Source: an uncultured Bacteroidales bacterium (lineage in GTDB: Bacteria; Bacteroidota; Bacteroidia; Bacteroidales; Bacteroidaceae). From it: a stretch of 43,822 nt of DNA. The notes beneath the pieces were generated by a model, which searched no databases, was not told where the DNA came from, and saw only the letters and a list, made by a program, of their open reading frames with translations. Where the stretch lies: the NCBI GenBank assembly GCA_902782245.1, contig CACZMI010000010.1:1-43822 (forward strand), given 5' to 3'. How positions within the stretch are numbered: position 1 is the first letter of the stretch; each line of letters begins with the position of its first letter. The position numbers and the translations under genes are program-made. Below are positions 4,232-35,447 of the stretch, in pieces.

Positions 4232-4283
4232 GATTAACAACGGCTTGAGTTATCAACTGATTGTTAAAAACTTTTTTAAATAA

Positions 4284-4310
4284 AAAGTGGGGCAAAGTGG
4301 GTTAAAGTGG
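4284..4310 (+). promoter_or_regulatory. Three MraZ boxes (AAAGTGG at 10-bp period)
   Basis: AAAGTGG occurs three times in direct repeat at 4284-4290, 4294-4300 and 4304-4310, exactly one helical turn apart. This matches the described MraZ operator patterns (TGGGN repeats separated by five bases in E. coli; AAAGTG-type repeats in Mycoplasma). The repeats cover the region where the -33 box of the mraZ promoter should lie, so MraZ probably controls its own operon by covering this promoter (inference). Confidence 0.8.
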
Positions 4311-4322
4311 AGTGAAAAGTTA

Positions 4323-4330
4323 TATCTTTG
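4323..4330 (+). promoter_or_regulatory. TAnnTTTG -7 box (TATCTTTG) of the dcw operon
   Basis: An exact consensus match lies 13 bases downstream of the last MraZ box. Transcription would start near 4335, 23 bases before the mraZ ATG at 4358. It is the only promoter-like site I find at the head of the dcw cluster, whose later genes are packed too tightly for obvious internal promoters. Confidence 0.6.
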
Positions 4331-4357
4331 AATCCGATTATCGATTATCGGCTTAAA

Positions 4358-4813
4358 ATGAGTTTCATAGGTCAGTTCCCGGTACGGCTTGACGCCAAGA
4401 ACAGGGCGTTTATGCCGGCAGGTTTCCGCCGTCTGCTTCAGCAGGCGGGGGAACAGACTCTGGTGGTCCGCAAGGATTACTTTGAGGACTGTCTTGTGGT
4501 TTATCCTGCCACACAATGGAGGGATGAGATTGCCGGGGTGCGTGCGCGTCTGAACCGTTTCGACGGAAACCAGCAGATGGTGTACCGCAAACTGGTGTCC
4601 GAGGCTCAGGAGGTGCAACTGGACAGCAACGGCCGACTGCTGCTGCCCAAAGCGCTGCTCGATAAGGTCGGGATAAAGCAGGATGCTCTCTTTGTGGGTA
4701 TGGAGCAGACCATTGAGATCTGGAATCCCGATGTTGCCGCCCAAAACGGTCAGCAGCCGTTCATGAGCGACAGCGAGTTTGCCGATAGTCTGCGAAAATT
4801 CATGACTGAGTGA
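4358..4813 (+). CDS. mraZ: Transcriptional regulator MraZ
   Basis: The 151-residue protein has the MraZ architecture of two SpoVT/AbrB-like half domains. Each carries the expected Asp-x-x-x-Arg motif: D12-AKN-R16 near the start and D89-SNG-R93 in the second half. MraZ binds direct repeats upstream of its own gene and controls the division and cell-wall cluster. The ATG at 4358 is preferred over an in-frame TTG at 4328, because that TTG lies inside the promoter box and upstream of the predicted transcription start, and because the protein then begins MSFIG as usual for the family. It is the first gene of the dcw operon, 25 bases before rsmH. Three matching operator boxes lie upstream. Confidence 0.95.
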   Translation: MSFIGQFPVRLDAKNRAFMPAGFRRLLQQAGEQTLVVRKDYFEDCLVVYPATQWRDEIAGVRARLNRFDGNQQMVYRKLVSEAQEVQLDSNGRLLLPKALLDKVGIKQDALFVGMEQTIEIWNPDVAAQNGQQPFMSDSEFADSLRKFMTE

Positions 4814-4838
4814 TACAGACAATATACATAGCAGGTAA

Positions 4839-5747
4839 GTGGACACAAACGGGACATATCATGTGCCTGTCCTTCTCAAACAAAGCGTAGAAGGACTTGT
4901 CGTAGACCCTGACGGGGTCTATGTGGATGCCACCTTTGGCGGTGGCGGCCACTCACGCGAGATAGTGTCCCGACTCAGCACAAGAGGTCATCTCTACAGT
5001 TTTGACCAGGATGCCGATGCCATGAACAACATCATAAAGGATGACCGCTTTACATTCGTTTACTCCAATTTCCGTTATATGCCCAATTTCATGCGCTGGT
5101 ACGGCCATGAGAAGGTTACTGGCATACTTGCCGATCTGGGGGTGTCCTGGCATCATTTCGATGACAGCACACGCGGATTCTCATTCCGTTTTGAGGGGCC
5201 GATAGATATGCGTATGAACCAGAAAGAGGGGATGAAGGCATCGGACGTACTGAATGAATACCCGGAGGAGAGGCTGGCGCAGTTGTTCTGGCTGTACGGT
5301 GAACTCCAGAACGGACGTCAGGTGGCCGCTGCCATCGGACGCGCCCGTAGGAACTGCCGTCTGGAGACTGTAACCCAGTTGCTGGATGCCGTACGCCCGG
5401 TGATAGGACGTGAACGTGAAAAAAAAGATACCGCCAAACTGTTCCAGGCACTGCGTATGGAGGTGAACCATGAGGTGGATGCACTGCGCGAGATGCTTTG
5501 CGGGGCTGTCGGGCTGCTTGACAAGGGTGGGCGTCTGGTAGTGATTACCTATCACTCCATAGAGGACCGCATGGTCAAGAACCTGATAAAGAGCGGAAAT
5601 ATTGAGGGAGATATAAAGACTGATTTCTACGGAAACCGTCTGGTACCGTTCAAGGCCATTGGGAAACCTGTTGTTCCCGATGCCCGCGAGCAGGCCGCCA
5701 ATCCGCGTTCCCGTAGTGCCAAACTGAGAATTGCCGAGAAACTCTGA
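4839..5747 (+). CDS. rsmH: 16S rRNA (cytosine1402-N4)-methyltransferase RsmH
   Basis: RsmH (MraW) methylates N4 of C1402 in 16S rRNA using S-adenosylmethionine. The 302-residue protein shows the SAM-binding motif Gly-Gly-Gly-Gly-His-Ser at residues 34-39, the DQDADA motif, the signature ADLGVSWHHFDDSTRGFSF, and the late ITYHSIEDR motif. The start is GTG at 4839. A TAA codon lies directly before it in frame, so translation cannot begin further upstream, and the next residues lead into the conserved HVPVLL start of the family. No clear Shine-Dalgarno is present, as is normal in this phylum. It lies between mraZ and ftsL, one base from the latter. Confidence 0.95.
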   Translation: MDTNGTYHVPVLLKQSVEGLVVDPDGVYVDATFGGGGHSREIVSRLSTRGHLYSFDQDADAMNNIIKDDRFTFVYSNFRYMPNFMRWYGHEKVTGILADLGVSWHHFDDSTRGFSFRFEGPIDMRMNQKEGMKASDVLNEYPEERLAQLFWLYGELQNGRQVAAAIGRARRNCRLETVTQLLDAVRPVIGREREKKDTAKLFQALRMEVNHEVDALREMLCGAVGLLDKGGRLVVITYHSIEDRMVKNLIKSGNIEGDIKTDFYGNRLVPFKAIGKPVVPDAREQAANPRSRSAKLRIAEKL

Positions 5748-6069: not shown

Positions 6070-8258
6070 GTGCAATGAACAGGGATGACAACCGTTCACA
6101 GGAGAAGAAGAGGGTATCCCGCAAATACCTGTCCCTTTTCTTCCTGATGCTTGTGTGGGGTGCGCTGATTATCATCAAGATGGGACTTGTGATGTTTGGC
6201 GAGCGGCAGTACTGGAATGAGGTAAACCGTAGCATGACCCCCGAAAACAGGGTGATTGCCCCGCGCAGGGGTAATATCCTCAGTGATGAAGGACTGCTTC
6301 TGGCCAGCAGTGTCAAGCAGTACCGGGTGTTCCTGGATTTCCGTACATCCGAGAGCGAAGCAAAGCGTAAGGAACGCGACCAGTTGCGTAAGGATACACT
6401 GTATACCAGACATCTGGCGGAATTTTCACGTCAGATGCATGAAATATTCCCCAATTACTCGGTGCAGGAGTTTGCGACCCATTACGAGAACGGTTTTAAG
6501 AACAAGTCACACTCCTGGCCTCTGTTGCCTGGCGTGTCACGCAACTCATACCCGATTTCTTACAATCAGTACAAGTCACTGGGACAGACCGTGTGGATGA
6601 AGCCCAAGTACAGGGGGTGGTTCTTTGGTGCAGAGGAAAAAATCTCCCGCGAGAAGCCTTTCGGGACACTGGCATCACGCACCATCGGTGCCATGTATGA
6701 GGCCAAAGACTCAGCCCGATATGGTCTGGAACTCTCGTTTGACTCATTGCTTCGCGGTGTGCCGGGCCGCGGTCATCAGGAGAAGGTGCAGAACGTGACC
6801 CGTATGGTGGCCGATGTCCCGCAGATTGACGGCTGTGACGTACATACGACAATCAACGTGGACATGCAGGATATTGCCGAGGTGGCATTGCGTAACGTGA
6901 TGAACACACACAGCACTGCAGTATCGGGAATTGTGGTGCTTATGGAGGTTCATACCGGTGATATCAAGGCTATGGCCAGCCTCACCAAGACCGCTCCAGG
7001 TCAGTTTGACGAGATTCAGAACAATGCTGTGAGGGAGATTTTTGAGCCAGGTTCCACTTTCAAGACGGTATCCATGATGGTGGGGCTCGATGAAGGGAAG
7101 TTTGATATTACAGACAGCATATTCTGTGAGAACGGCAGTTATGGAGGATACGGAGGCCCCAAACCTATGACTGATTCACATAGGAACGGATGGCTGGATG
7201 TTCCGCATATCCTGGCCGAATCAAGTAACATAGGTACATCAAAACTTATTCATGCCGCATTCAAGGATCACCCGGAGGATTATGTTGACGGCATATACCG
7301 TACGGGAATCAATACGCACTTCAGCCTTCAGCTTACCGGTACTGCCGCTCCTGTAATAAGACGTGACGGTTACTGGGATGCAACCCGTCTGCCGTGGATG
7401 TCCATAGGCTATAACACCCAGTTGCCGGTAATTAATACCCTGGCATTCTACAACGGCATAGCAAACGGCGGCTGTATGGTGGCTCCCCGTCTGGTTACAG
7501 AAGTCACCCGTGACGGAGAGGTGATTAAGGAAATCCCGGTAGAAGTGGTGTGCCGCCATATGTGCAAGGATGAGACTCTCGAAAAACTCAGATATATGCT
7601 TGAGTTGGTAACCGTAGAGGGAACAGGAAAGGGTGCCGCATCAAAGCATTTCAGGACAGCCGGCAAGACGGGTACCGCGCAGACATCACATGGATCGGCC
7701 GGTTACCAAGGCGGAATCCGTGGTTATATGGTGTCGTTCTGCGGCTATTTCCCGGCCGATAATCCGCAATACTCCTGCATAGTGTCCGTACGCAATGAAG
7801 GCGGTAATGCCGGTGGCGGAACCTGGGCAGCACCCGCATTCCGTGAGATATCGGAGAGGGTTATGGCCAGCCGTGATTTGAGGGATATAAGTGAGGCATA
7901 TGATTCTGTACACCAGTTCATTCCCAAGGTGATGCCGGGCGATTTGGCCAAGGCAGGCACAGTGCTCAAGGGTTTGGGCAAGAAGAATCTGATGCGTAAG
8001 ACAGACCGTTCACTCCCTGACAGCATATGGGGATGGGTCAATTCCGACTCTGGCCGATACGTGATGAATTACGCGGAGTATGCAGAAGGCGTGGTGCCCG
8101 ATGTACGCGGGATGGGGGCATCGGACGCCATTTACCTGCTGGAACGTATGGGAATGAGAGTGAGCATTGAAGGAGTGGGTAAGGTAAAGACCCAGGTGCC
8201 GGCCCGCAACACCCGTTTCAGGAAAGGCGACAGAATACAGTTAACATTATCAATGTGA
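6066..8258 (+). CDS. ftsI: Septal peptidoglycan transpeptidase FtsI (class B PBP3) with PASTA domain
   Basis: This 730-residue class B penicillin-binding protein cross-links septal peptidoglycan in partnership with FtsW. It has a basic cytoplasmic N-terminus, one membrane anchor at about residues 22-42, a dimerisation region, and a transpeptidase domain. The three active-site motifs are present: S330-T-F-K333 (acylated serine), S386-S-N388, and K534-T-G536. The last 60 or so residues (from about VVPDVRGM) form a PASTA domain, commonly seen in Bacteroidetes and Gram-positive FtsI but not in E. coli FtsI. The ATG at 6066 overlaps the ftsL stop codon. The next gene, murE, begins at the stop codon, so all are probably translationally coupled. 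Confidence 0.95.
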
Positions 8259-8263
8259 CATAT

Positions 8264-9712
8264 ATGGTGACAATTGGAGAACTTGTTTCAGGACTTAAGA
8301 CACTGCGTACGGTAGGTGATACCGGGGTGGAGGTTACCGATATCCAGCTGGATTCACGCAAGGTATCAAAAGGATGTCTGTTCGTGGCCATGCGCGGAAC
8401 TACCGTTGACGGCCATCAGTTCATTCCCAAGGCTATTGAGTTGGGCGCTGCATCGGTCTTGTGTGAGGTGTTGCCCGATGAGACAGTGAGCGGCGTTACA
8501 TACGTGCAGGTACCTGACTGCGAGGATGTGGTGGGTACGGTGGCCACAAGATTCTTTGGCAATCCCACCGACAAAGTCAAACTGGTGGGTGTTACCGGCA
8601 CCAACGGCAAGACCACCATCGCCACATTGCTTTACAACATGTTCCGCAAGTTCGGATACAAGACCGGCCTGCTGTCAACGGTATGCAATTACATAGACGG
8701 AGAGCCCATTCCCGCCGATCATACCACACCGGATGCGGTTACGCTTAACCGTCTGCTGGGACGTATGGCCGATGAAGGGTGCAAATACGTATTCATGGAG
8801 TGCAGTTCGCACGCCATCGTGCAGAAGCGCATTGGCGGACTCAAGTATGCAGGCGGCATATTCACAAACCTGACACGTGACCACCTGGATTACCATAAGA
8901 CGGTTGAGAACTATCTCAAGGCCAAGAAGAAGTTCTTTGACGATATGCCCAAGGACGCCTTTGTGGTGACAAATCTGGATGATAAAAACGGCCTGGTCAT
9001 GACACAGAACACCAAGGCCAAGGTTACCACATACTCTCTGCGCAGCATGAGCGATTTCAAGGGCCGTCTGCTGGAGTCGGGATTTGACGGAATGCTGCTT
9101 GAAATAAACGGACGCGAGGTGTTCCTTAAGTTCATAGGCAAATTCAATGCAAGCAACCTGCTGGCCGTTTACGGTACCGCAGTGAACCTGGGCCGCGATC
9201 CGATGGAGGTGCTCACCGTGATGAGTACCCTGGTTCCGGTGAACGGCAGGTTTGATGCAATACGCTCCCCCAAGGGATTCACCGCAATCGTGGATTACGC
9301 CCATACTCCCGATGCCCTGACAAACGTGCTCACTACAATCGTTGATGTGCTTGACGGAAAGGGTCAGATAATAACAGTGGTGGGTGCCGGCGGCAACCGT
9401 GACAAGGGCAAGCGTCCGCTTATGGCCAAGGAGAGCGTAAAATACAGTGACCGTGTAATAATAACATCGGACAACCCCCGTTTTGAGGAGCCGCAGGATA
9501 TAATCAACGATATGCTGGCAGGCCTTACAAAGGAGGATATGCAGAAGGTGATATCGATTGTTGACCGCCGCGAGGCCATACGTACGGCCTGTATGATGGC
9601 TCAGGCGGGTGATGTTATCCTGGTGGCCGGCAAGGGTCATGAGGATTATCAGGAGATAAAGGGAGTCAAGCATCATTTTGACGACCATGAGGTAATACGT
9701 GAATGCTTTTAA
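8264..9712 (+). CDS. murE: UDP-MurNAc-L-Ala-D-Glu:meso-diaminopimelate ligase MurE
   Basis: MurE adds the third residue of the peptidoglycan stem peptide in the cytoplasm, using ATP. With the ATG at 8264 the protein has 482 residues. The P-loop GTNGKTT lies at residues 112-118, followed by the Mur-ligase central domain and a C-terminal domain with D403-N-P-R406. The DNPR motif is the established signature of meso-diaminopimelate specificity, so the wall is predicted to be DAP type. A GTG at 8255 in the same frame overlaps the ftsI stop and could be an alternative start adding three residues. The gene sits between ftsI and mraY, with 13 bases before the latter. Confidence 0.96.
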
Positions 9713-9725
9713 ATAAATGGTATAG

Positions 9726-11012
9726 ATGCTGTACAGTCTGTTTGAATACTTGAAGAATTCCGGATTTGATATTCCGGGTGGTGGAATGTTCAGTTATGTG
9801 ACCTTCAGGGCCATATTCGCACTGGTTACGTCACTGGTGGTGTCATGCTGGTTCGGCAGTCATTTCATTGACATGCTCAAGCGCCGCAACATATCCGAGA
9901 CGCAGCGTGATGTAAAACTGGATCCGTTCGGCGTGACCAAGAAGGGCGTTCCCACTATGGGAGGTGTGATAATCATAGTGGCTATCCTGCTTCCATGTAT
10001 TCTGATAGGTGACCTGAAGAATGTATATATGTGGCTCATGCTCATAACCACCGTCATTCTTGGAGCCATAGGATTTGCCGATGACTATATCAAGACATTC
10101 CGCAAGAACAAAGACGGACTCAACGGATGGATAAAGGTGGCCGGACAACTTGCTCTGGGTCTGATAGTTGGCCTGACTCTGCGTTACAGCCCCCAGGTGG
10201 TGATAAACGAGAAAGTCGAGACACGCATTGAGAACAATACCGAGATAGTTGTAAAGACTCCCGATGTAAAATCCACCCGTACCACTATACCGTTCTTCAA
10301 GAACCATAACCTGAACTATGCCGATGCTTTCGGTTGGCTGGGTGACAAGGCCAAATATCCGGCCGGCTGGGTGTTCTTTGTGCTGCTTACGCTGTTTATC
10401 GTAACAGCCGTATCGAACGGATCCAACCTGAATGACGGCATGGACGGTATGGCGGCCGGAAACAGCGCCATAATAGGAGTGACGCTGGGTATATTAGCCT
10501 ATGTGTCCAGTAATGTAGTGACCGCAAGCCATTTTGACCTTATGTACGTGCCCGGAAGCCAGGAGGTGGTAGTCTATCTGGCTGCATTCGTGGGTGCCCT
10601 GATAGGTTTCCTGTGGTTCAACTCATACCCGGCACAGATATTCATGGGTGATACCGGCAGTCTGACAATAGGAGGAATCATAGCCGTGGCTGCGCTCTGC
10701 ATACATAAGGAATTGCTGCTGCCCATACTGTGCGGTGTGTTTCTGGTGGAGAGCCTGTCGGTCATTTGCCAGCGTTTCTACTATAAGCTGGGTAAGCGCA
10801 AGGGTGTGCACCAGCGCATATGGAAGCGCACTCCAATACATGATCATTACCGTACAAGCATGGAGCAGGTGCTCAAGGCCGATCCCACAAGCACGGTCAA
10901 GTTCCACGGTAATGACAACAAGTTACAGTTTGAGACCAAAATAACGCTCAGGACCTGGATCATAAGCATAGGTCTTGCAGCACTTACCATATTGACCTTG
11001 AAAATCAGATGA
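9726..11012 (+). CDS. mraY: Phospho-MurNAc-pentapeptide transferase MraY
   Basis: MraY is the integral membrane enzyme that transfers phospho-MurNAc-pentapeptide from UDP to undecaprenyl phosphate, forming lipid I. The 428-residue protein has about ten membrane segments. It carries the catalytic Asp motifs A118-D-D-Y121 (in FADDYIK) and N236-D-G-M-D-G241, and a later FMGDTGSL motif. It is longer than the E. coli enzyme (about 360) because of an extra loop at about residues 155-200 containing charged, Thr-rich sequence. Such an insertion is usual in Bacteroidetes MraY as far as I recall. The stop codon overlaps the murD start (ATGA). Confidence 0.96.
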   Translation: MLYSLFEYLKNSGFDIPGGGMFSYVTFRAIFALVTSLVVSCWFGSHFIDMLKRRNISETQRDVKLDPFGVTKKGVPTMGGVIIIVAILLPCILIGDLKNVYMWLMLITTVILGAIGFADDYIKTFRKNKDGLNGWIKVAGQLALGLIVGLTLRYSPQVVINEKVETRIENNTEIVVKTPDVKSTRTTIPFFKNHNLNYADAFGWLGDKAKYPAGWVFFVLLTLFIVTAVSNGSNLNDGMDGMAAGNSAIIGVTLGILAYVSSNVVTASHFDLMYVPGSQEVVVYLAAFVGALIGFLWFNSYPAQIFMGDTGSLTIGGIIAVAALCIHKELLLPILCGVFLVESLSVICQRFYYKLGKRKGVHQRIWKRTPIHDHYRTSMEQVLKADPTSTVKFHGNDNKLQFETKITLRTWIISIGLAALTILTLKIR

Positions 11013-12355
11013 GAATTATGTCACAGAAGAAAATTGTTGTTCTGGGTGCAGGAGAGAGCGGTACAGGCGCAGCCATTCTGGCAAAGGCCAAGGGCTTTGA
11101 CGTGTTTGTATCGGACCTGTCCGAGATAAAGGAGCATTACCGTAACGAACTGGATGCCCGTGGAATAGAGTGGGAACAGAAACAGCATACCGAGGAGCGT
11201 ATCCTTGCGGCCGATGAGATCATCAAGAGCCCGGGTATCCCCAAGGAGGCCCCCATCATACAGAAACTGATGGCGCAGGGCACTCCCATTATATCGGAGA
11301 TTGAGTTTGCCGGCCGATACACCAACGCCAAGATGATCTGCATAACCGGATCCAACGGCAAGACCACGACCACATCGCTCATATACCATATATTCAAGAT
11401 GGCGGGTATGAATGTGGGTCTGGCCGGTAACATAGGCAGCAGCCTGGCATGGCAGGTGGCCGAGAAGAACTATGACTACTATGTGATAGAGTTGAGCAGT
11501 TTCCAGTTGGACAACATGTATGACTTCAAGGCCGATATAGCCATCCTTATGAACATAACGCCCGATCATCTGGACCGTTATGACTATGAGATGCAGAACT
11601 ACGTGGATGCCAAGATGAGGGTCATCCGCAACCAGACCAAGGACGATGCGTTCGTATACTGGAGCGACGATCCTATCATTACCCGTGAACTCAAGAAGTA
11701 CGGTCTCAAGGCTACCCTCTATCCTTTTGCCGAGGCCAAGCGTGAGGATCTGGCTGCTTACGTGGAGGACGGAACCCTTTACTTCAACAAGCCGTACTCA
11801 TTCAATATGGAGCAGGAGTCACTGGCTCTCACCGGCAAGCATAACCTGTACAACTCCATGGCTGCCGGTATATCGGCCAACATTGCCGGTATCAAGAGCG
11901 AGACCATACGTAAGGCTCTGCAGACTTTCCAGGGCGTGGAACACCGCCTGGAGCGTGTTACAAGGGTTAACGGCATTGACTTTATTAATGACTCCAAGGC
12001 TACCAACGTGAACAGCTGCTGGTACGCCCTGCAGAGCATGCCTGTAAAGTGCGTTCTCATATTGGGCGGTAAGGATAAAGGCAATGACTACAACGAGATT
12101 GCGGACCTGGTACGCGAAAAGTGCTGCGGTCTGGTCTATATGGGTCTGCACAACGAGAAACTGCATGGTTTCTTTGACGGTTTCGGACTCCCCGTGGCCG
12201 ATGTGCAGTCAATGAAGGATGCTGTTGATGCCGCATATAAGATGGCTCATCCGGGCGAGATAGTACTGCTCAGTCCCTGCTGTGCCAGCTTTGACCTCTT
12301 TAAGAGTTATGAGGATAGAGGCGATCAGTTCAAGGCTTGCGTAAGAGCATTATAA
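11009..12355 (+). CDS. murD: UDP-MurNAc-L-alanine:D-glutamate ligase MurD
   Basis: MurD adds D-glutamate to UDP-MurNAc-L-Ala. The 448-residue protein starts with a Rossmann-like UDP-binding domain (VVLGAGESGTG), then the ATP-binding motif G114-S-N-G-K-T-T-T121, the central domain with MNITPDHLDRY, and a C-terminal domain with FINDSKATN and LGGKDKG. All are typical of MurD. Two in-frame ATG codons are possible: 11009, which overlaps the mraY stop and suits translational coupling, and 11018, which would give the more usual MSQKK start. The length is normal for the family either way. Seven bases separate it from ftsW. Confidence 0.96.
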   Translation: MRIMSQKKIVVLGAGESGTGAAILAKAKGFDVFVSDLSEIKEHYRNELDARGIEWEQKQHTEERILAADEIIKSPGIPKEAPIIQKLMAQGTPIISEIEFAGRYTNAKMICITGSNGKTTTTSLIYHIFKMAGMNVGLAGNIGSSLAWQVAEKNYDYYVIELSSFQLDNMYDFKADIAILMNITPDHLDRYDYEMQNYVDAKMRVIRNQTKDDAFVYWSDDPIITRELKKYGLKATLYPFAEAKREDLAAYVEDGTLYFNKPYSFNMEQESLALTGKHNLYNSMAAGISANIAGIKSETIRKALQTFQGVEHRLERVTRVNGIDFINDSKATNVNSCWYALQSMPVKCVLILGGKDKGNDYNEIADLVREKCCGLVYMGLHNEKLHGFFDGFGLPVADVQSMKDAVDAAYKMAHPGEIVLLSPCCASFDLFKSYEDRGDQFKACVRAL

Positions 12356-12362
12356 AAAGGAT

Positions 12363-13640
12363 ATGGATACGACGGAGGATAAACCCAAACGCAGACAACT
12401 GCTCAACGGAGACCGTACCATCTGGGCAATGGTTTTCGTGTTGTGCGCAATATCCCTTGTGGAGGTGTTCAGCGCCAGTAGCCGTCTTACGTTCGGCAAG
12501 AGCAGTTTCCTGACACCGATAATATCGCATACCTTGCACCTTTGCATAGGTCTGGGAGGTATGTGGGTGGTACATCTTTTCCACTACAAGTGGTATAAGC
12601 TGTTCCCGATTTTCCTGGTGCCTATGGCTGTACTGCTGCTGGGTTATCTCTCTCTGCGCGGTATGGGAACATCAAATGCCGAGCGTTGGATTAATCTGGG
12701 ATTCATCCAGTTGCAGCCGTCGGAACTGGGTAAGATAGGTGTAATTATGGCGGTGGCTTACTGGCTTTCCAAACTTAAGACCGATGATGAACTGAGCCAG
12801 GCCAATACTTTCTGGAAAATACTGGGACTGACAGGGTTGGTCGATGCTCTTATCGTTGGTGAAAACCTCTCTACGGCAGTCCTGCTTGCCGGTGTAGTAT
12901 ATGTGATGATGATACTTGGCGGCATATCATGGAAGCGTATCCTTGCGCTCACGGGAGTAGTTACGGCTGCAGGTACAGTCGCCATACTGTTTCTGCTGTT
13001 CGTGCCGCCCCAGACATTGAAGGAACTCAAGTTTATTCCGGACCGTGCTCTCACATGGCAGGACAGACTGTTGGATTACTTCCATGCTACTGATAAGCCC
13101 AACGCTTATGAGTATGCCAAGTACGAAGCCCCGCAAAAGCCGCAGGAGACACATGCCAACATAGCTATTGCCACAAGTAACATATTGGGCAAGGGTCCCG
13201 GCAACTCAAATGAGCGGGATTATCTGCAGGAAGCCAGTTGTGACTTTATATACGCCATCATCATCGAGGAGTTGGGCATGGTGGGTGGAATATTTGTGAT
13301 ACTGGTCTATGTAGTGCTGCTTTTCAGGGTGGGACGCATAGCGACACGATGTAAGGAGAAATACCCCGCATATCTGGCTATGGGCCTGGGTATGCTTCTG
13401 GGATTGCAGGCTTTCATCAATATGTCGGTGGCAGTGGGTCTGTTCCCGGTAACCGGACAGCCGCTTCCGCTTATAAGCAAGGGAGGAACATCCATTCTTA
13501 TGGCAAGCGGATGTGTGGGAATGCTGTTGGGAATAAGCAACACTATAGACAAGGAGGCCCGCGGAGAGCAGGCGCTGGGTACCGGTGCCGATATCCCCAC
13601 CCCGGTTGACGGACAGGAATCTTTTGACGAAACTAAATAA
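12363..13640 (+). CDS. ftsW: Lipid II polymerase FtsW (SEDS family)
   Basis: FtsW is the SEDS-family peptidoglycan glycosyltransferase of the divisome and works with FtsI. The 425-residue protein has around ten membrane segments. Family landmarks include NLGFIQLQPSELGK (P119-S-E121), a conserved AIIIEELG segment in the large periplasmic loop region, and the late signature beginning at P367, PLPLISKGGTS. The last 30 or so residues are hydrophilic and acidic (EARGEQALG onward), forming a cytoplasmic tail. Its position between murD and murG is the standard dcw order. A RodA paralogue is the only real alternative, and the cluster argues against it. Confidence 0.95.
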   Translation: MDTTEDKPKRRQLLNGDRTIWAMVFVLCAISLVEVFSASSRLTFGKSSFLTPIISHTLHLCIGLGGMWVVHLFHYKWYKLFPIFLVPMAVLLLGYLSLRGMGTSNAERWINLGFIQLQPSELGKIGVIMAVAYWLSKLKTDDELSQANTFWKILGLTGLVDALIVGENLSTAVLLAGVVYVMMILGGISWKRILALTGVVTAAGTVAILFLLFVPPQTLKELKFIPDRALTWQDRLLDYFHATDKPNAYEYAKYEAPQKPQETHANIAIATSNILGKGPGNSNERDYLQEASCDFIYAIIIEELGMVGGIFVILVYVVLLFRVGRIATRCKEKYPAYLAMGLGMLLGLQAFINMSVAVGLFPVTGQPLPLISKGGTSILMASGCVGMLLGISNTIDKEARGEQALGTGADIPTPVDGQESFDETK

Positions 13641-13644
13641 ACAT

Positions 13645-16149
13645 ATGGAGGCAAAACCAAGAATAATAATCAGCGGAGGCGGTACGGGAGGTCATATCTT
13701 TCCTGCAGTTTCAATAGCTCATGCAATCAAGGCTCTGAACCCGGATACGGAGATTCTGTTTGTTGGTGCAGAGGGCAGAATGGAGATGCAGCGTGTGCCG
13801 CAGGCCGGATTTGAGATAAAGGGACTTCCCATCTGCGGGTTTGACCGTAAGAATCCTTTCAGGAACATAGTGGTACTGTTCAAGATAATGCGCAGCCAGA
13901 TGATGGCACGCCGCATCATACGTCAGTTCCGTCCCATGGTTGCCGTGGGAGTGGGAGGTTATGCAAGTGGTCCAACCCTGCGCATAGCAGGCAAGATGGG
14001 TATTCCCACCCTGCTTCAGGAACAGAACTCATATGCGGGTGTAACCAATAAGATTCTTGCCAGGAAGGCCTCCAGGATATGTGTGGCATATGACGGCATG
14101 GAGCGTTTCTTTCCTGCCGACAAGATACTCAAAACAGGTAATCCGGTACGTCCGACACTTACAAAAGGCGGCATCACCCGTAAGAAGGCAAGCGCCGCTA
14201 TGGGACTTGATCCGGACAAGAGAACAGTGCTCATCGTGGGAGGCAGCCTGGGTGCACGTACACTGAATGAGAGCGTTATGGCCAACCTGGACCTGATACG
14301 CATGTCGGATGACGTACAGTTTGTATGGCAGACAGGCAAGTATTACTTTGAGGAGATGAAAAACCGCCTGGCCGCCGAACAGCCGGTAGGCAATCTTTTC
14401 CCCACTGAGTTCGTACAGGATATGGATCAGGCTTATGCAGCCGCCGATCTGGTTATATCGCGTGCCGGTGCCGGTACCATATCCGAACTATGCCTGCTGG
14501 GCAAGCCGGTAATTCTTGTTCCGTCACCCAATGTGGCCGAGGACCATCAGACCAAGAACGCCCTGGCACTGGCCGACAAGGATGCCGCAATCCATATCCG
14601 TGACGTGGACGCCAAGAAGGAACTGATACCTGCCGCAATAGATCTGGTAAAGGATGAGGTCCGTTTGGAACAGCTTCATGACAATATACTGAAACTGGCT
14701 ATGTATGATTCGGCCGAGATCATTGCCCGTGAGGTTCTCAAACTGGCAGGTTACGGCAGCGGATCTCTTAAGCTGGACGATATAAAATCTGTCTATTTCG
14801 TGGGCGCCGGAGGCATAGGAATGAGTGCTCTGGTACGTTACTTCCTGGCCCGCGGATGCAAGGTGGGCGGTTATGACCGTACATCGACCGATCTTACATC
14901 GGCCCTGATAAAGGAGGGCGCCATGATAGGGTTTGAGGATGACGTTGACAAGGTGGATGCCTGCTTTAAGGATTCGGCGTCAACCCTTGTGGTCTACACT
15001 CCGGCCATTCCGGCCGATAACCGGATACTCACATGGTTCAACATGCATTGCTTTGACGTGCAGAAACGCGCTCAGGTACTGGGTACGCTTACCCGTTCTC
15101 TGGACGGGCTGTGCGTGGCCGGAACTCACGGCAAGACCACCACATCATCCATGCTGGCTTATATTCTGGACGGTACGGATGAGGGCTGCAATGCGTTCCT
15201 GGGTGGTATACTCAAGAATATTCAGAGCAATCTGATGATAAGCAACAGGAGCCGCCGCGTGGTTATTGAGGCCGATGAGTTTGACCGCTCGTTCCATCAT
15301 CTTACCCCGCTAAGGTCTGTCATTACCGCGGTGGATGCCGACCATCTGGATATTTACGGCACCTATGAGGCATATATTGAGAGTTTCCGCAAGTATACCT
15401 CACTCATTAAACCGGGAGGTGACCTGGTGCTTCATGCGGGCCTGGCCGACAGAATCATGCCGCAACTTCAGAAAGGTGTGAATCTCTATACCTACGGACT
15501 TGATGAAGGCTATTTCCATGCCGCAAACATAAGGGTGGGTAACGGAGAACTCAAGTTTGACTATGTGTCTCCGCTGGGCAGCATTGCCGATGTGGAACTG
15601 GGTGTGCCCATTCCTATCAATGTGGAGAATGCGGTGGCCGCTATGGCTATGGCACAGTTGAGCGGCGCATCGGATGATGTAATACGTGAGAGGATAGGGT
15701 CATTCCGCGGATGTGACCGCCGTTTTGATTTTCATGTAAAGAAGGCCGACAAGGTCTATCTGAGTGATTATGCCCATCATCCCGAGGAGATCCGTCAGTG
15801 CGCCCTGTCGCTGCGCAAGCTTTACGCCGACCGTAAGTTGACATGCATATTCCAGCCGCATCTATATACCCGCACAAGGGACTTCTACAATGAGTTTGCA
15901 GACAGTCTGTCTCTTTTTGATGAGGTATGGCTGCTGGAGATTTACCCCGCCCGTGAGCAACCCATACCTGGAGTGACAAGTGCTCTGCTTTCAGAGAATA
16001 TGAAACCCGGTGTATGCAAGGGAATCATATCCCGCAACCAGGTACCCGAACTTGTCAAGTCTATCAGGGATGATGTTCAGGTGCTGGTAACCCTGGGTGC
16101 AGGTGATCTGGAGGATTACGTTGAGACTATAACCGATATACTCAAATAA
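13645..16149 (+). CDS. murG-murC: MurG-MurC fusion: lipid I GlcNAc-transferase joined to UDP-MurNAc:L-alanine ligase
   Basis: One uninterrupted 834-residue reading frame contains two complete enzymes. Residues 1 to about 370 are MurG, which adds GlcNAc to lipid I at the inner face of the membrane: GGGTGG at residues 11-16, QEQNSYAGVTNKIL, and the nucleotide-sugar signature S272-RAGAGTIS-E281. From about residue 378 the frame continues as MurC, the first amino-acid ligase of the pathway: IKSVYFVGAGGIGMSAL, P-loop G493-THGKTTT500, DEFDRSFHHL, and YAHHP with H711-H712. Both halves have full family length and all key motifs. The linker is only about ten residues (AGYGSGSLKL), with no stop codon or start signal between them. 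In most relatives the two genes are separate neighbours in this order. The ATG at 13645 is four bases after ftsW and gives the usual MurG start. A real fusion seems likely, though a base-call error removing a stop codon cannot be excluded from one sequence. Confidence 0.92.
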   Translation: MEAKPRIIISGGGTGGHIFPAVSIAHAIKALNPDTEILFVGAEGRMEMQRVPQAGFEIKGLPICGFDRKNPFRNIVVLFKIMRSQMMARRIIRQFRPMVAVGVGGYASGPTLRIAGKMGIPTLLQEQNSYAGVTNKILARKASRICVAYDGMERFFPADKILKTGNPVRPTLTKGGITRKKASAAMGLDPDKRTVLIVGGSLGARTLNESVMANLDLIRMSDDVQFVWQTGKYYFEEMKNRLAAEQPVGNLFPTEFVQDMDQAYAAADLVISRAGAGTISELCLLGKPVILVPSPNVAEDHQTKNALALADKDAAIHIRDVDAKKELIPAAIDLVKDEVRLEQLHDNILKLAMYDSAEIIAREVLKLAGYGSGSLKLDDIKSVYFVGAGGIGMSALVRYFLARGCKVGGYDRTSTDLTSALIKEGAMIGFEDDVDKVDACFKDSASTLVVYTPAIPADNRILTWFNMHCFDVQKRAQVLGTLTRSLDGLCVAGTHGKTTTSSMLAYILDGTDEGCNAFLGGILKNIQSNLMISNRSRRVVIEADEFDRSFHHLTPLRSVITAVDADHLDIYGTYEAYIESFRKYTSLIKPGGDLVLHAGLADRIMPQLQKGVNLYTYGLDEGYFHAANIRVGNGELKFDYVSPLGSIADVELGVPIPINVENAVAAMAMAQLSGASDDVIRERIGSFRGCDRRFDFHVKKADKVYLSDYAHHPEEIRQCALSLRKLYADRKLTCIFQPHLYTRTRDFYNEFADSLSLFDEVWLLEIYPAREQPIPGVTSALLSENMKPGVCKGIISRNQVPELVKSIRDDVQVLVTLGAGDLEDYVETITDILK

Positions 16150-16150
16150 G

Positions 16151-16888
16151 GTGTTAAAGAAGATTCTGTCCATATTAACGGTGGTCGTGCTGGCCGGATA
16201 TCTGGGATATTCGCTGCTGGCGCTGACAGACAGGCATGAAGATGTCCGTCTGTGCCGTGGCATAGACCTCCATATTACGGACAGCCTTCATTTTGACCTT
16301 ATTGATGAGGAGATGGTTCTGCAGGTTCTGCAGGAACATTCCATAGATCCGACGGGGCTGCCGCTGGATGAGATTGACCTTGAAAAGACAGAGGCAACGC
16401 TTCTGCTGCATCCTCTGGTAGGCAAGGTTCAGTGTTACAAGACCGGCGGTGATCTGCTCAGAATAAACCTGTCCAGTAAGGTGCCGTTGGTGCGAGTCAT
16501 CAATAACCGCGGCAATGACTTCTATGTTGACAGCCGGGGTGAGATACTGACGCAGCATTCGCTGGCCGTACAGTTGCCGGTGGCAACCGGTTACATAGAC
16601 CGCCAGTTTGCATCGCACCAGTTGCTTGAGGTGGTTCGTGTCCTGGACCGTTCGGAGTTCTGGAAGGCTCAGGTGGAGCAGATAAATGTTACGCGTGACG
16701 GACAGATTGAACTTGTACCCCGCGTGGGTGATCATCTGCTCATTCTGGGTACGGCCGATAATGTGGAGGACAAACTGGAACGTCTGATGAACTTTTACTC
16801 AAAGGGTCTGGATAACGTAGGCTGGAACAAATACCGTTCAATAAGCGTGGCTTACGATGGTCAGGTGGTATGTAAGAAACGAAAATAA
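16151..16888 (+). CDS. ftsQ: Cell division protein FtsQ
   Basis: The 245-residue protein has a short basic head, one membrane segment at about residues 5-24, and a periplasmic domain. The part after the membrane resembles the POTRA domain (about residues 35-105, containing DLEKTEATLLLHPLVGKVQCY) followed by the FtsQ/DivIB beta domain with YVDSRGEIL. FtsQ recruits FtsL and FtsI to the septum. The start is GTG at 16151, one base after the murG-murC stop; it directly precedes LKKIL and no better start exists. The position between murC and ftsA supports the name, since sequence conservation of FtsQ is weak. Confidence 0.9.
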   Translation: MLKKILSILTVVVLAGYLGYSLLALTDRHEDVRLCRGIDLHITDSLHFDLIDEEMVLQVLQEHSIDPTGLPLDEIDLEKTEATLLLHPLVGKVQCYKTGGDLLRINLSSKVPLVRVINNRGNDFYVDSRGEILTQHSLAVQLPVATGYIDRQFASHQLLEVVRVLDRSEFWKAQVEQINVTRDGQIELVPRVGDHLLILGTADNVEDKLERLMNFYSKGLDNVGWNKYRSISVAYDGQVVCKKRK

Positions 16889-16893
16889 GATAG

Positions 16894-18327
16894 ATGGAAG
16901 ACAAAGTAATTGTTGCAATTGAACTTGGTTCATCCAAGATCTCGGGCGTGGCGGGTCAGATCATGACTGACGGCTCGCTCAAGGTGCTGGCATACGCCGG
17001 CGTTCCGTCATCGTCATGTATCCGTCATGGCGCTGTATACAATCTGGACAAGACAGCCAATGCAATTGCTGAGGTGGTGGAACGGCTCAATGCTATCCTT
17101 TCCACCAGTATCGAGAAGGTTTACGTAGGCTACAATGCCAAGGGCCTGAAGTCGATAATCAGCAGGGTGGAGCATCAGTTTGATGAGGAAACCGTAGTGA
17201 GTCAGGATATTATTGATGTGATGTTCCAGCAGTGCAGTGAGATAGAGTATGACGGTTATGTAAACCTGTTCCAGGAGTCACAGGAGTATGTCGTCGACAA
17301 CAAGCGCGGAACGGAGACTGACCCCATCGGCGTGGCCTGCCGTTCACTCGGCGGCAGTTATCTGAACATCCTGCTCAAGAAACAGGTGGCCGATTACATT
17401 GCACAGTGCTTTATGATGGCACAGGTGGAGATTGTGGACGGTTACGTTGCACCCATGTCCGAGGCCGATTCCATCCTGACCGATGACGATCGCCAGCAAG
17501 GCTGCGTTCTGGTTGACTACGGTGCTGACACCACCACCGTATCGGTCTACAAGAACGGCATGCTGCGTTACCTGAGAGTCATTCCGTTGGGCAGCGCGCT
17601 GATTACACGTGACCTTGCGGCGATACTCAAGATAGAACCCGAGCAGGCCGAGCAGATAAAGTGCACCTACGGACTGTGCAACCTTATAGGCAGCCAGGAT
17701 GCCGGCGAGACAATAATGATCAATGACAGCAAGGTGCTGCTCAAGGACATAGGCGATATAATCGAGGCCCGTAACGAGGAGATTATCCGTAACGTATGCG
17801 CGCAGATCAAGGCTTCCGGTTACGGAGAGGTTCTGTATGCCGGAATAGTTCTGACCGGCGGCGGCTCACAGCTGCGTCAGCTGGATCAGGTGTTTGTCAA
17901 ACTGATGCCTTCAATGCGCCGTCCGCGCGTGGTTACCGAACCCACCTGTGGCGTAACATGGATTGAGCCCAGTTGGAAGCGCGGCGACGGCTCACAGCTG
18001 GCACTGCTTTCAGTCATGGCCGAGGGTGACGAGAACTGCTGTGAACTGCCCAAGATGGATGAGATAGAAAACATATCGGCCGAGAATCAGGATAAGGTGA
18101 TTCAGAGAGATCTCTTTACACCAAACGGCGAGAGTGCTCAGGCTGTGATTGACCGCCAGGAGCAGGAGGAGCGTGAGAGGGCGGCCGCCAGGAAAGAGGA
18201 GGAGGCTGCCGCAAAAGAGGAGGAGGCCGAAAAGAACCGTTCCAAGAAGGTCAGTGTGTTTAAGCGTTGGGTTGACAATGTCATGAACATGGGTGAGAGT
18301 TTCTTTGAGGATAAAGATAACAATTGA
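16894..18327 (+). CDS. ftsA: Cell division protein FtsA
   Basis: FtsA is the actin-like ATPase that tethers FtsZ to the inner membrane. The 477-residue protein begins IVAIELGSSKISGVAG, the phosphate-1 motif of the actin fold. It later shows LVDYGADTTTVSVYKNG (phosphate-2) and GIVLTGGGSQLRQL (adenosine motif). At about residues 425-450 there is a strongly charged Glu/Lys/Ala-rich linker. It is followed by a C-terminal amphipathic segment VFKRWVDNVMNMGESFF, the expected membrane-targeting sequence. The gene is five bases after ftsQ and two bases before ftsZ. Confidence 0.96.
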   Translation: MEDKVIVAIELGSSKISGVAGQIMTDGSLKVLAYAGVPSSSCIRHGAVYNLDKTANAIAEVVERLNAILSTSIEKVYVGYNAKGLKSIISRVEHQFDEETVVSQDIIDVMFQQCSEIEYDGYVNLFQESQEYVVDNKRGTETDPIGVACRSLGGSYLNILLKKQVADYIAQCFMMAQVEIVDGYVAPMSEADSILTDDDRQQGCVLVDYGADTTTVSVYKNGMLRYLRVIPLGSALITRDLAAILKIEPEQAEQIKCTYGLCNLIGSQDAGETIMINDSKVLLKDIGDIIEARNEEIIRNVCAQIKASGYGEVLYAGIVLTGGGSQLRQLDQVFVKLMPSMRRPRVVTEPTCGVTWIEPSWKRGDGSQLALLSVMAEGDENCCELPKMDEIENISAENQDKVIQRDLFTPNGESAQAVIDRQEQEERERAAARKEEEAAAKEEEAEKNRSKKVSVFKRWVDNVMNMGESFFEDKDNN

Positions 18328-18329
18328 TT

Positions 18330-19541
18330 ATGAACCAGGATATTAAAGAATTTGAGGAGAAAGAGATTCTCCCGTTTGACTTTCCTACCGAATCACGTAA
18401 GATAATCAAGGTTATCGGCGTGGGCGGCGGTGGCAGCAATGCTGTCAAGAATATGTACCGGGAGGGTATCCACGATGTTGTTTTTGTGATAGCAAATACA
18501 GACCAGCAGGCACTTGCCGACTCGGATATACCCATCAAACTCCAGTTGGGCCGTCAGACCACTAATGGTTTGGGAGCCGGTAATGATCCTGAGGTGGCGC
18601 GCAAAGCCGCCGAGGAGAGTCTTGACGATATCAAGGCGCAGTTCAAGGATGATACCCAGATGGTGTTCATCACCGCAGGTATGGGCGGCGGTACCGGAAC
18701 CGGTGCGGCTCCTGTGATTGCCAAATGTGCCAAAGAGTGCGGAATGCTTACCGTGGGTATTGTGACCATCCCGTTCAAGTTTGAGATGCGGCCCAAGATC
18801 AAGCAGGCTCTCAAGGGCGTGCGCGAGATGTCACAGTATGTCGATGCCCTGCTTGTTATCAGCAACGAGAAACTGCTTGAGATATACCCGGACAAGAGTG
18901 TTGCCACCGGATTCCTGCATGTGGATGAAACTCTGACCACTGCAACCAAGAGCATAGCCGAGCTCATTACCTGCCGTGGTATAATAAACCTTGACTTCCG
19001 TGATGTCAACAAGGTCTTGAAGAATGGCGGCGTAGCGATAATGAGTACCGGTATAGCCAAGGGTGAGAATCGTGTGAACCAGGCTTTTGATGCAGCCCTG
19101 AAATCACCTCTGCTCTATAACAACGATATCCATAAAGCCAAGAAGATTCTGTTCAATATCTATCAGAGCACACAGCAGGAACATCAGCTTATGCTTGACG
19201 AGATGAATGAGGTGCGACACTTCATGGACAAGTTCGAGGATAAGAACATTGAAGTTATCTGGGGCCTTGCCAATGATGATTCTCTGACAGATGAGGTTAA
19301 GATAACGGTTCTGGCTACCGGATTCGGCATGGACAATCTGCCTCTTATGGATGATGAGGAGGTTGTTGATACGGTCATTGAAGGCCTGTATGGTGACCGT
19401 GTCGACAAGCGTCAGCTCTATTTATATGAGATGACCGATGCCGATCTGGACAATGATGCACTGATTGATGCCATCGAGGCATCACCTACATATCTGCGTA
19501 ATACTGTGGGATTATCTGAACTTAAGGCTCTGCGTGCCTAA
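18330..19541 (+). CDS. ftsZ: Cell division GTPase FtsZ
   Basis: FtsZ is the tubulin-like GTPase that forms the division ring. The 403-residue protein shows the nucleotide-binding GVGGGGSNAV from G30, the tubulin signature GMGGGTGTG at residues 117-125, and the T7 synergy loop N220-L-D-F-R-D225, which completes the active site of the next subunit. After the core (ending near VLATGFG) there is an acidic linker and a segment SPTYLRN that resembles the conserved FtsZ C-terminal peptide (PxYLR/PxFLR), followed by about 12 more residues. The ATG at 18330 is preferred over a TTG at 18324 that overlaps the ftsA stop. Its stop codon overlaps the stop of convergent recO, so no terminator lies between them. 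Confidence 0.97.
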   Translation: MNQDIKEFEEKEILPFDFPTESRKIIKVIGVGGGGSNAVKNMYREGIHDVVFVIANTDQQALADSDIPIKLQLGRQTTNGLGAGNDPEVARKAAEESLDDIKAQFKDDTQMVFITAGMGGGTGTGAAPVIAKCAKECGMLTVGIVTIPFKFEMRPKIKQALKGVREMSQYVDALLVISNEKLLEIYPDKSVATGFLHVDETLTTATKSIAELITCRGIINLDFRDVNKVLKNGGVAIMSTGIAKGENRVNQAFDAALKSPLLYNNDIHKAKKILFNIYQSTQQEHQLMLDEMNEVRHFMDKFEDKNIEVIWGLANDDSLTDEVKITVLATGFGMDNLPLMDDEEVVDTVIEGLYGDRVDKRQLYLYEMTDADLDNDALIDAIEASPTYLRNTVGLSELKALRA

Positions 19542-20877: not shown

Positions 20878-22901
<2,024 letters not shown>

Positions 22902-32759: not shown

Positions 32760-35447
32760 ATGAGCGACGAAACAGAGGAAATGGATGATGAACTCCGCAA
32801 TCCGGAGGAGAACGTGACCGATGAAGGCCAGGAAGCCGGACACTCCAGTTACCATCCGGTGACGGATGACAACGGAATGATACGCCATCAGCTTTCGGGA
32901 ATGTACCAGGGCTGGTTCCTGGATTATGCATCATACGTCATCCTGGAGCGTGCCGTACCTCATTTTGTGGATGGACTCAAACCGGTTCAGAGACGTATCC
33001 TGCACTCAATGAAACGCCTGGATGACGGACGTTTCAACAAGGTGGCCAACATAGTGGGTCACACTATGCAGTTCCATCCTCACGGTGATGCCTCGATAGG
33101 TGACGCACTGGTTCAGATGGGCCAGAAGGACCTGCTCATAGAATGCCAGGGAAACTGGGGAAACATCCTTACAGGTCATCGCGCCGCAGCGCCCCGTTAT
33201 ATTGAGGCCCGTCTGTCCAAGTTCGCTCTTGAGACACTGTTCAATCCCAAGACTACGGAGTGGAAGGCATCATATGACGGCCGTAACAAAGAGCCGGTCA
33301 CACTGCCTGTCAAGTTCCCGCTGCTGCTGGCACAGGGAGCCGAGGGAATTGCCGTAGGATTGTCCTGTAAGATACTTCCGCACAATTTCAACGAGCTTTG
33401 TGACGCCGCAGTGTCATACCTGCGCGGTGAGGAGTTCCACCTCTATCCCGATTTTCAGACCGGTGGTGCCATAGACGTGTCCCGTTATAATGACGGCGAG
33501 CGCGGAGGCATGGTGCGCATTCGTGCCAAGATTACGAAAGAAGCTGACAATAAGACTCTGGTCATAAACGAGATTCCGTACGGCGAGAACGTGATGACGC
33601 TGTGTGAGTCAATCGTAAAGGCCGGAGAGAAAGGCAAGATAAAGATCCGCAAGGTAGAGAACCTTACGGCCGATAAGGTGGAGATACGCATATCGCTTGC
33701 GCCCGGTGTGTCATCGGACAAGACCATTGACGCCTTGTATGCATTCACCAACTGTGAGGTGAGCATATCGCCCAACTGCTGCGTTATTGATGAGAACAAG
33801 CCCCACTTCCTGACGGTAAGTGACGTGCTGCGCAAATCGGTCGATAACACCAAGGACCTGCTGCGCCGCGAGCTTGAGATTGAGCGCGGAGAGATTCTGG
33901 AGCAGCTGCACTTTGCCTCACTTGAGAAGATATTCATTGAGGAGCGTATCTATAAGGACCGCGAGTTTGAAGAGGCTCCCACCATGGATGCCGCCTGCGA
34001 GCATATCGATGACCGCCTTACTCCCTACTACCCGCAGATGATCCGTGAGGTGACCAAGGATGATATCCTCAAGTTGATGGAGATAAAGATGGCCCGCATC
34101 CTCAAGTTCAACAAGGATAAGGCCGAGGAGGCCATAGCCAAGATGAAGGCCGACATAGCCCGTATTGACAAGGACCTGAGCAATATGGTGGCAGTAACCA
34201 TCAGGTGGTTCAACATGCTCAAGAACAAGTACGGGGAACAGTACGAGCGCAAGACCGAAATCAAGAACTTTGACACCATCGTGGCCACAAAGGTGGTTGA
34301 GGCCAACCAGAAACTCTACATAAACCGCGCCGACGGATTCATAGGCATGGAACTCAAGAAGGATGAGTTCGTATGCAACTGCTCTGATCTGGACGACATC
34401 ATCCTGTTCTATAAGGACGGCCGATACAAGGTGGTAAAGGTGGCAGACAAGTTGTTCGTGGGCCAGAACGTGCTTTACCTTGACGTGTTCAAGAAGAACG
34501 ACAAACGTACGATATACAATGTGGTTTACCGTGACGGACGCAACGGCGCATACTTCATGAAGAGGTTTGCCGCCACCGGTCTGACACGTGACAAGGAGTA
34601 TGACCTGACTCAAGGCAAGCAGGGTTCCAAGATAATGTACTTCAGCGCCAACCACAACGGTGAGGCCGAGGTTATCAAGGTTACGCTCAAGCCCAATCCC
34701 AAGCTCAAGAAGCCTGTATTTGACAAGGACTTCAGTGAACTTATGATCAAAGGCCGCCAGTCAATGGGTAACCTGCTTACACGCAACGAGGTAAAGACCA
34801 TCGGACTCAAGTCTCTGGGCTCGTCCACATTGGGCGGCCGTAAGGTATGGTTCGACAAGGATATCCTGCGTCTTGACTTTGACGGACACGGCGAGTATCT
34901 GGGAGAATTTGACAGTGACGACCTGTTGCTGGTAATCAATGCGGACGGTGAGTATTACACAACCGCTCCGGATGCCAACTGCCACTTTGATACCGGAATA
35001 CTGCGCATTGAGAAATACAACCAGGGTAAGGTTTGGACGGCAGTGCTGTTTGACGCATCGCAGAAGGGTTATCTCTACCTTAAGAGATTCAACCTGGATC
35101 CGTCGGCCAAACGCATAAATATCCTGGGTGATGAGAAAGAAAACAGGCTTGTGCTGTTAACAGATACGGTCTATCCGCGTCTATTGGTTACACTGGGAGG
35201 AGCGGACAGCTTCCGCGAGCCGATGGAGATAGATGCTGACAGTTTTGTGGGCGTCAAGGGCGTCAAGGCGCGCGGTCGCAGGGTGACCGCATTCAACGTG
35301 AAGGATGTGGAGGAACTTGTGCCTTTGCGTATGCCGGAGCCTGAGCCTATACCGGCCGATCCGGAACCGGATGACAATGATAATTCCGCACAGACGGACG
35401 ATGATAATACTGAAAAAGTTGATGACGGGCAGTTGTCGCTGTTCTAA
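32760..35447 (+). CDS. parC: DNA topoisomerase IV subunit A (ParC-type)
   Basis: The 895-residue protein is a type IIA topoisomerase A subunit that breaks and rejoins duplex DNA. The N-terminal breakage-reunion domain includes DGLKPVQRRILHSM and the catalytic Tyr147 in AAAPRYIEARLS. A coiled-coil arm follows at about residues 370-480, then a C-terminal beta-pinwheel from about residue 520. I see no GyrA box (QRRGGKG-like) in the C-terminal domain, which supports topoisomerase IV over gyrase. The last 40 or so residues are Pro/Asp/Glu rich and look disordered. They end exactly in Gln-Leu-Ser-Leu-Phe, the canonical sliding-clamp binding pentapeptide. The next gene starts inside this tail. Confidence 0.92.
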   Translation: MSDETEEMDDELRNPEENVTDEGQEAGHSSYHPVTDDNGMIRHQLSGMYQGWFLDYASYVILERAVPHFVDGLKPVQRRILHSMKRLDDGRFNKVANIVGHTMQFHPHGDASIGDALVQMGQKDLLIECQGNWGNILTGHRAAAPRYIEARLSKFALETLFNPKTTEWKASYDGRNKEPVTLPVKFPLLLAQGAEGIAVGLSCKILPHNFNELCDAAVSYLRGEEFHLYPDFQTGGAIDVSRYNDGERGGMVRIRAKITKEADNKTLVINEIPYGENVMTLCESIVKAGEKGKIKIRKVENLTADKVEIRISLAPGVSSDKTIDALYAFTNCEVSISPNCCVIDENKPHFLTVSDVLRKSVDNTKDLLRRELEIERGEILEQLHFASLEKIFIEERIYKDREFEEAPTMDAACEHIDDRLTPYYPQMIREVTKDDILKLMEIKMARILKFNKDKAEEAIAKMKADIARIDKDLSNMVAVTIRWFNMLKNKYGEQYERKTEIKNFDTIVATKVVEANQKLYINRADGFIGMELKKDEFVCNCSDLDDIILFYKDGRYKVVKVADKLFVGQNVLYLDVFKKNDKRTIYNVVYRDGRNGAYFMKRFAATGLTRDKEYDLTQGKQGSKIMYFSANHNGEAEVIKVTLKPNPKLKKPVFDKDFSELMIKGRQSMGNLLTRNEVKTIGLKSLGSSTLGGRKVWFDKDILRLDFDGHGEYLGEFDSDDLLLVINADGEYYTTAPDANCHFDTGILRIEKYNQGKVWTAVLFDASQKGYLYLKRFNLDPSAKRINILGDEKENRLVLLTDTVYPRLLVTLGGADSFREPMEIDADSFVGVKGVKARGRRVTAFNVKDVEELVPLRMPEPEPIPADPEPDDNDNSAQTDDDNTEKVDDGQLSLF

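Follow-up and report, generated by a model that had tools for sequence, protein, structure and literature searches.

Is the joining of murG and murC into one reading frame, as seen in an uncultured Bacteroidales bacterium, a real and inherited feature, and what could it do for the cell? In the Mur pathway, MurC carries out the first peptide ligation and MurG the last cytoplasmic sugar transfer, with MurD, MurE, MurF and MraY acting in between, and it has long been asked whether the Mur enzymes act together in a membrane-bound complex. The locus considered here lies in a window of 43,822 nucleotides, by which we mean the whole stretch of DNA analysed. A single stop-free frame at 13645-16149 on the plus strand translates into 834 residues, which comprise a complete MurG, about ten linker residues and a complete MurC.

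The frame is part of a compact dcw cluster in the order mraZ, rsmH, an FtsL-like gene, the gene of a penicillin-binding protein, murE, mraY, murD, ftsW, the murG-murC fusion, ftsQ, ftsA and ftsZ. The features to which the text refers are listed below with their window coordinates, strand and supporting matches.

4328-4813, plus strand: mraZ (PF02381, 68.3 bits; TTG start in the ORF list)
8255-9712, plus strand: murE (NF001126, 620.4 bits)
9726-11012, plus strand: mraY (TIGR00445, 245.5 bits)
11009-12355, plus strand: murD (TIGR01087, 417.1 bits)
12363-13640, plus strand: ftsW, 4 nt upstream of murG (TIGR02614, 239.2 bits, below the cut-off of 337.5)
13645-14748, plus strand: MurG half, residues 1-368 (TIGR01133; Pfam PF03033 and PF04101; PDB 3s2u and 1f0k)
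14749-14778, plus strand: linker, residues 369-378 (10 residues, GYGSGSLKLD; from the junction DNA and the start-codon scan)
14779-16146, plus strand: MurC half, residues 379-834 (TIGR01082; Pfam PF01225, PF08245 and PF02875; PDB 9ir5, E 1.2e-63)
16151-16888, plus strand: ftsQ, 1 nt downstream of the murC stop (PF03799, 30.4 bits)
16894-18327, plus strand: ftsA (TIGR01174, 199.4 bits)
18324-19541, plus strand: ftsZ (TIGR00065, 345 bits)
40052-41356, plus strand: murF, separate and about 24 kb downstream (TIGR01143, 374.4 bits, above the cut-off of 288.6)

A minus-strand ORF of 197 residues (4253-4846) overlaps the plus-strand mraZ, gave no Pfam match over the 196 residues scanned and is probably spurious. 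The window also holds a gyrase/topoisomerase IV A subunit gene (32760-35447, plus strand; NF009397, 1392.8 bits) and, about 10 kb from it on the opposite strand, gyrase B (20907-22895, minus strand; TIGR01059, 940.8 bits).

Both halves of the 834-residue protein match their family profiles at nearly full length. The MurG half exceeds the cut-off of the NCBIfam model TIGR01133 (286.3 bits against 250.25; residues 5-362, profile positions 6-351 of 353). The MurC half, in which the three Mur ligase domains (PF01225, PF08245 and PF02875) are present, falls slightly below that of TIGR01082 (317.9 bits against 335.1; residues 383-826, profile positions 2-445 of 449), a model that outscores all other ligase models by a wide margin. 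Six separate MurCs from other Bacteroidota score 328.2-372.4 bits against the same model, and two of them are also below its cut-off. An alignment of 25 rows, 21 of them built from separate murG and murC genes, was used for residue conservation; it replaced a first mixed alignment of separate MurG and MurC rows, discarded because the MurC rows were misplaced, with identities of 20-30%. The invariant columns include H17, G102, Q125-N128, G199-S201, G203, R273, E281 and H301-N305 in MurG, presumably the conserved glycine loops and the acceptor and donor residues, and G493, H495-T498, E542, D566-H567, N659, R692-R693 and D708-H712 in MurC, which we take to be the P-loop and conserved catalytic residues. 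As judged from these columns, the window protein keeps the conserved residues of both enzymes, known motif regions included. An earlier, sequence-only reading of the window had described an uninterrupted frame from a complete MurG to a complete MurC across a joint of about ten residues, with the catalytic and binding motifs kept in both halves, and the profile matches and the alignment bear out both points.

A whole-protein search of the window's genome, an assembly of 98 contigs that is 85.71% complete, returned no second murG or murC, the sole extra match being murD. An assembly or sequencing error that deleted a stop codon would also yield one long frame, and the fragmented and incomplete state of this assembly speaks for it, but the relatives refute it. 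A stop-free MurG-MurC fusion was found in 31 of the 37 genomes of the genus, the window's own included, in each case as one ORF. The other 30 fused proteins are 68-95% identical to the window's over their whole length, and their junctions are open in diverged sequence, mostly without a murC ATG. An error peculiar to the window's assembly is thereby ruled out, as is the lost-stop artefact that the sequence-only reading had wanted excluded, and the probability left to this explanation is negligible. The MurG-MurC join of these gut bacteria is real and inherited.

The six remaining genomes of the genus (G011, G015, G016, G017, G022 and G024) carry two genes in different frames; their MurC match starts 14-38 nt after the MurG match ends, a distance that takes in stop and start, and murC has its own ATG. 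In a quick tree without bootstrap, built from four genes (MurD, FtsW, FtsA and FtsZ; 27 rows), the 12 fused rows form one clade (SH-aLRT 98) with the six unfused rows outside it. An FtsW-only tree with all 31 fused members, from which 2 of the 11 outgroup rows dropped out, likewise needs one change of state, with weak support (68/82). No unfused genome falls inside the fused group, and a single origin of the fusion in the genus is the simplest reading.

Within the fused group, median dN/dS between the window and its 20 top-scoring relatives (L003-L022) was 0.058 for MurG and 0.050 for MurC, values that are only rough because dS approaches saturation (roughly 0.7-1.4 in the pairs listed). Across the 31 fused members, column identity was 0.81 in MurG, 0.79 in MurC and 0.57 over residues 367-379, and the linker, 27, 30 or 33 nt long, is variable in sequence. 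These values point to purifying selection on both halves and to drift of the linker.

The fused frame need not give a single product, as MurC might also be made alone through internal initiation, or the fusion might be cleaved after translation. In-frame ATG codons do occur in the linker zone of several loci, outside the genus (L150, L152, L153, L186 and L191) and inside it (L019, L124 and L133), and in-frame GTG or TTG codons in some genus members, the window included, could act as weak internal starts. However, 28 of the 31 fused genus members are without an in-frame ATG there, among them the window according to a start-codon scan, and the GTG and TTG codons share no common position. The window's own in-frame GTG encodes the valine immediately preceding the glycine loop, so that a start at this codon would be expected to miss the first strand of the fold. 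Two products are accordingly judged improbable. At the junction of L153 (genome G310), outside the genus, an in-frame ATG is retained with GGAGG about 10 bases upstream, and MurC alone might therefore also start in that locus.

Beyond the genus, the distribution of the fusion was followed at three ranks. A phylum-wide draw of 395 genomes gave, among the matches listed, no stop-free full-length match but the window's own, a search that two-piece alignments could escape; this agrees with the expectation of the sequence-only reading that murG and murC are usually separate elsewhere in the phylum. The own-family draw contained 9 fused genomes out of 201 among the matches listed, all in the own genus, and none among the 189 genomes of other genera, where two-piece alignments could likewise escape. 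The order survey (393 genomes) yielded six genomes with a stop-free full-length match, namely the window's own, G416, G420, G275, G310 and G411, the last five spanning four other families and all being single ORFs. Both genomes of G310's genus are fused, as is one of the three in G420's family, and G275 is the sole genome examined from its family. In the family of G416 (f91; 39 genomes drawn), ORFs show the fusion in 9 genomes, G416 among them, and two separate genes in 20, the other 10 being without an ORF-level call; murG and murC are separate in G315, a member of this family. Further candidates with long linkers, suggested by long open-frame values of MurC-only matches (G159, G100, G198, G055, G065, G120, G095 and G158), were rejected, as their ORFs are two genes each, and so was G632 of f91, a long-frame candidate that also resolves into two genes; the open-frame values appear to run past stop codons.

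The scatter of the fused genomes was then read on quick trees, again without bootstrap. For the order, 54 rows were chosen and 51 kept, L191, L203 and L204 being dropped with one gene only; well-supported branches force every one of the 10 changes of state that the fusion label requires on this tree, in which L195 covers 34% of columns. A tree of f91 with L195 left out needs 6 changes, 4 of them forced, and the AU test rejects a single clade of the fused f91 rows (p 3.35e-05). The fused f91 members are scattered over the tree as isolated tips and small groups, their label clustering barely above chance (in 125 of 500 shuffles the count was as low), and such weak clustering suits a loosely held trait in this family. 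Change counts on a tree cannot separate gain from loss; the fused genes of the own genus are mostly without a murC ATG, so that a return to two genes looks harder than the reverse. Taken with this caution, the trees suggest that the MurG-MurC fusion arose repeatedly in related bacteria of the order. Two junctions show particular structures. In L195 (G632), 363 nt separate the murG and murC matches and the locus branches with a fused relative, a placement resting on 34% of columns; the gap is perhaps an insertion that split a former fusion. In L194 (G637), the 60-nt fusion linker consists mostly of near-identical HSSPFTL repeats, a tandem expansion.

Repeated fusion at one junction can be read in two ways. 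The first is permissiveness: a near-neutral fusion that needs no advantage and becomes locked in when murC loses its own start. The spacers are short, and frequently a single change would open the frame: of the 77 unfused loci within L046-L123, a set biased to in-frame pairs, 49 have one in-frame stop between the two genes; the isolated tips and small groups of f91 are what frequent, weakly selected events would give, and the steps of MurC and MurG are non-consecutive. A frame-joining change would, on these terms, be tolerated at murG-murC and not elsewhere because both neighbours are soluble with free ends. FtsQ ends outside the membrane and FtsW is a membrane protein, and topology of this kind restricts some pair fusions. 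Against permissiveness, 31 genomes of the genus have kept the fusion, at identities as low as 68%, and none inside the group is unfused.

The neighbouring gene pairs bear on the same point. Fusions were found in 0 of 129 murD-ftsW, 0 of 167 ftsW-murG, 0 of 180 murC-ftsQ, 0 of 173 ftsQ-ftsA and 0 of 119 ftsA-ftsZ pairs. Median spacing, taken from the end of the upstream frame to the last in-frame stop ahead of the downstream gene, was 3 for murG-murC, -1 for ftsW-murG, -11 for murC-ftsQ, 11 for murD-ftsW and 18 for ftsA-ftsZ; the junctions of ftsW-murG and murC-ftsQ are thus at least as close as that of murG-murC, and those of murD-ftsW and ftsA-ftsZ are looser. Two pairs that stay unfused though as close would count against permissiveness, but for little, since the loci were gathered through MurG-MurC matches, with in-frame separate pairs over-represented, many close relatives and a few duplicates, and the comparison is suggestive only. 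For the same reason the 46 fused among 182 junction loci are not a frequency; on a recount, there are 183 distinct MurCs in 189 loci with murC, and 44 in the 46 fused loci. The draws from the genus, the order, f91, the own family and the phylum, by contrast, took no account of fusion. A weak control with FtsW in the order draw (393 genomes) showed no open frame longer than 490 residues among the matches listed. An ftsW/murG fusion does exist in K. flavida, according to the legend of Fig. 3 in PMC4929429.

The second reading sees the murG-murC junction as a hot spot, fused convergently and independently in several lineages of the order while the other neighbouring junctions stay unfused, because selection favours a link between MurC, the committed first ligase, and membrane-bound MurG; this would be natural, repeated evidence for a MurG-scaffolded complex that includes MurC. 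We put it forward tentatively, as doubtful on the present counts, and pure permissiveness seems to us possible but comparably unlikely.

The MurG-MurC architecture as such is already known. The precedent that carries a name is that of C. gilvus, presumably a Cellulomonas. The article of Laddomada et al. 2016 (PMC4929429) reports murG/murC fusions, names C. gilvus in the legend of Fig. 3 and notes that the steps are non-sequential; Laddomada et al. 2019 (PMC6420597) report such fusions again, with the idea of MurG as a scaffold. With MurG-MurC fusions already published by 2016, the one in the window is less of a surprise. As it appears there, the C. gilvus fusion is like the window's in its two genes, in their order and in being one gene of the dcw cluster, but it belongs to an actinomycete and is merely listed, whereas the window's lies in another phylum, recurs in many genomes, has a mapped origin and is repeated in the order. 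The MurE-MurF of Bordetella pertussis, likewise a fusion of neighbouring mur genes, is described in PMC6420597 as one bifunctional, elongated and flexible protein that binds MurG; it unites two ligases of consecutive steps, whereas MurG-MurC unites one ligase with a membrane-associated glycosyltransferase of a non-consecutive step. MurC-Ddl and MurB-MurC fusions, also named in passages of that article, whose reference titles include Chlamydia trachomatis and Verrucomicrobium spinosum, resemble the window's in joining MurC to another pathway enzyme and differ in the partner. The MurC/Ddl model NF011171 has MurC at its N-terminal end, whereas MurC is C-terminal in the window's fusion. No report of a MurG-MurC fusion in Bacteroidota was found in the open-licence literature, and as far as literature searches go, the single origin mapped in the genus and the repeated changes of state elsewhere in the order are new.

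For the genus itself, the live readings are the tethering of MurC to membrane-bound MurG and simple permissiveness. We favour the former with moderate confidence: a single join in an ancestor that gave a bifunctional 834-residue protein and so tethers MurC at MurG. The two dcw neighbours would have been joined in a single event, in the ancestor shared by most members of the genus, most plausibly by a frame-shifting change at the very short junction that brought the frames into register, with loss of the stop and of the murC start. The product would be one bifunctional polypeptide in the cell, whose MurG half is predicted to dock at the inner membrane and make lipid II, and whose MurC half is predicted to ligate L-Ala to UDP-MurNAc, with the short variable linker as tether. 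Such a tether would set a 1:1 ratio and may hold MurC at the site of MurG, that is inside any MurG-based precursor complex, where co-location could be of benefit.

Direct hand-over of substrate between the halves is not part of this proposal. MurD, MurE, MurF and MraY act between the two steps, so neither half receives the other's product directly and strict channelling is unlikely; here the sequence-only reading, which had suggested precursor channelling, is not supported. That the steps are not consecutive is also stated in PMC6420597, which describes reports of MurG oligomers and of its interaction or co-localisation with several Mur enzymes, and of its proposed role as a scaffold. The fusion does not accompany a loss of MreB or replace that other proposed scaffold, since MreB is matched above 350 bits in all 31 fused genus genomes. 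Such a match is present in 35 of the 37 genus genomes; the two others, G022 and G024, are unfused sisters in the four-gene tree (loci L139 and L138; 97 and 96% complete) with no MreB match above 52 bits, an apparent loss in their sub-lineage.

A MurG-scaffolded Mur complex is a pre-existing hypothesis with which the fusion is compatible, and of which it is not a test. What the genus and the scattered fused branches elsewhere in the order offer is a matched set of fused and unfused relatives, which allow a direct comparison of location, stoichiometry and inhibitor access.
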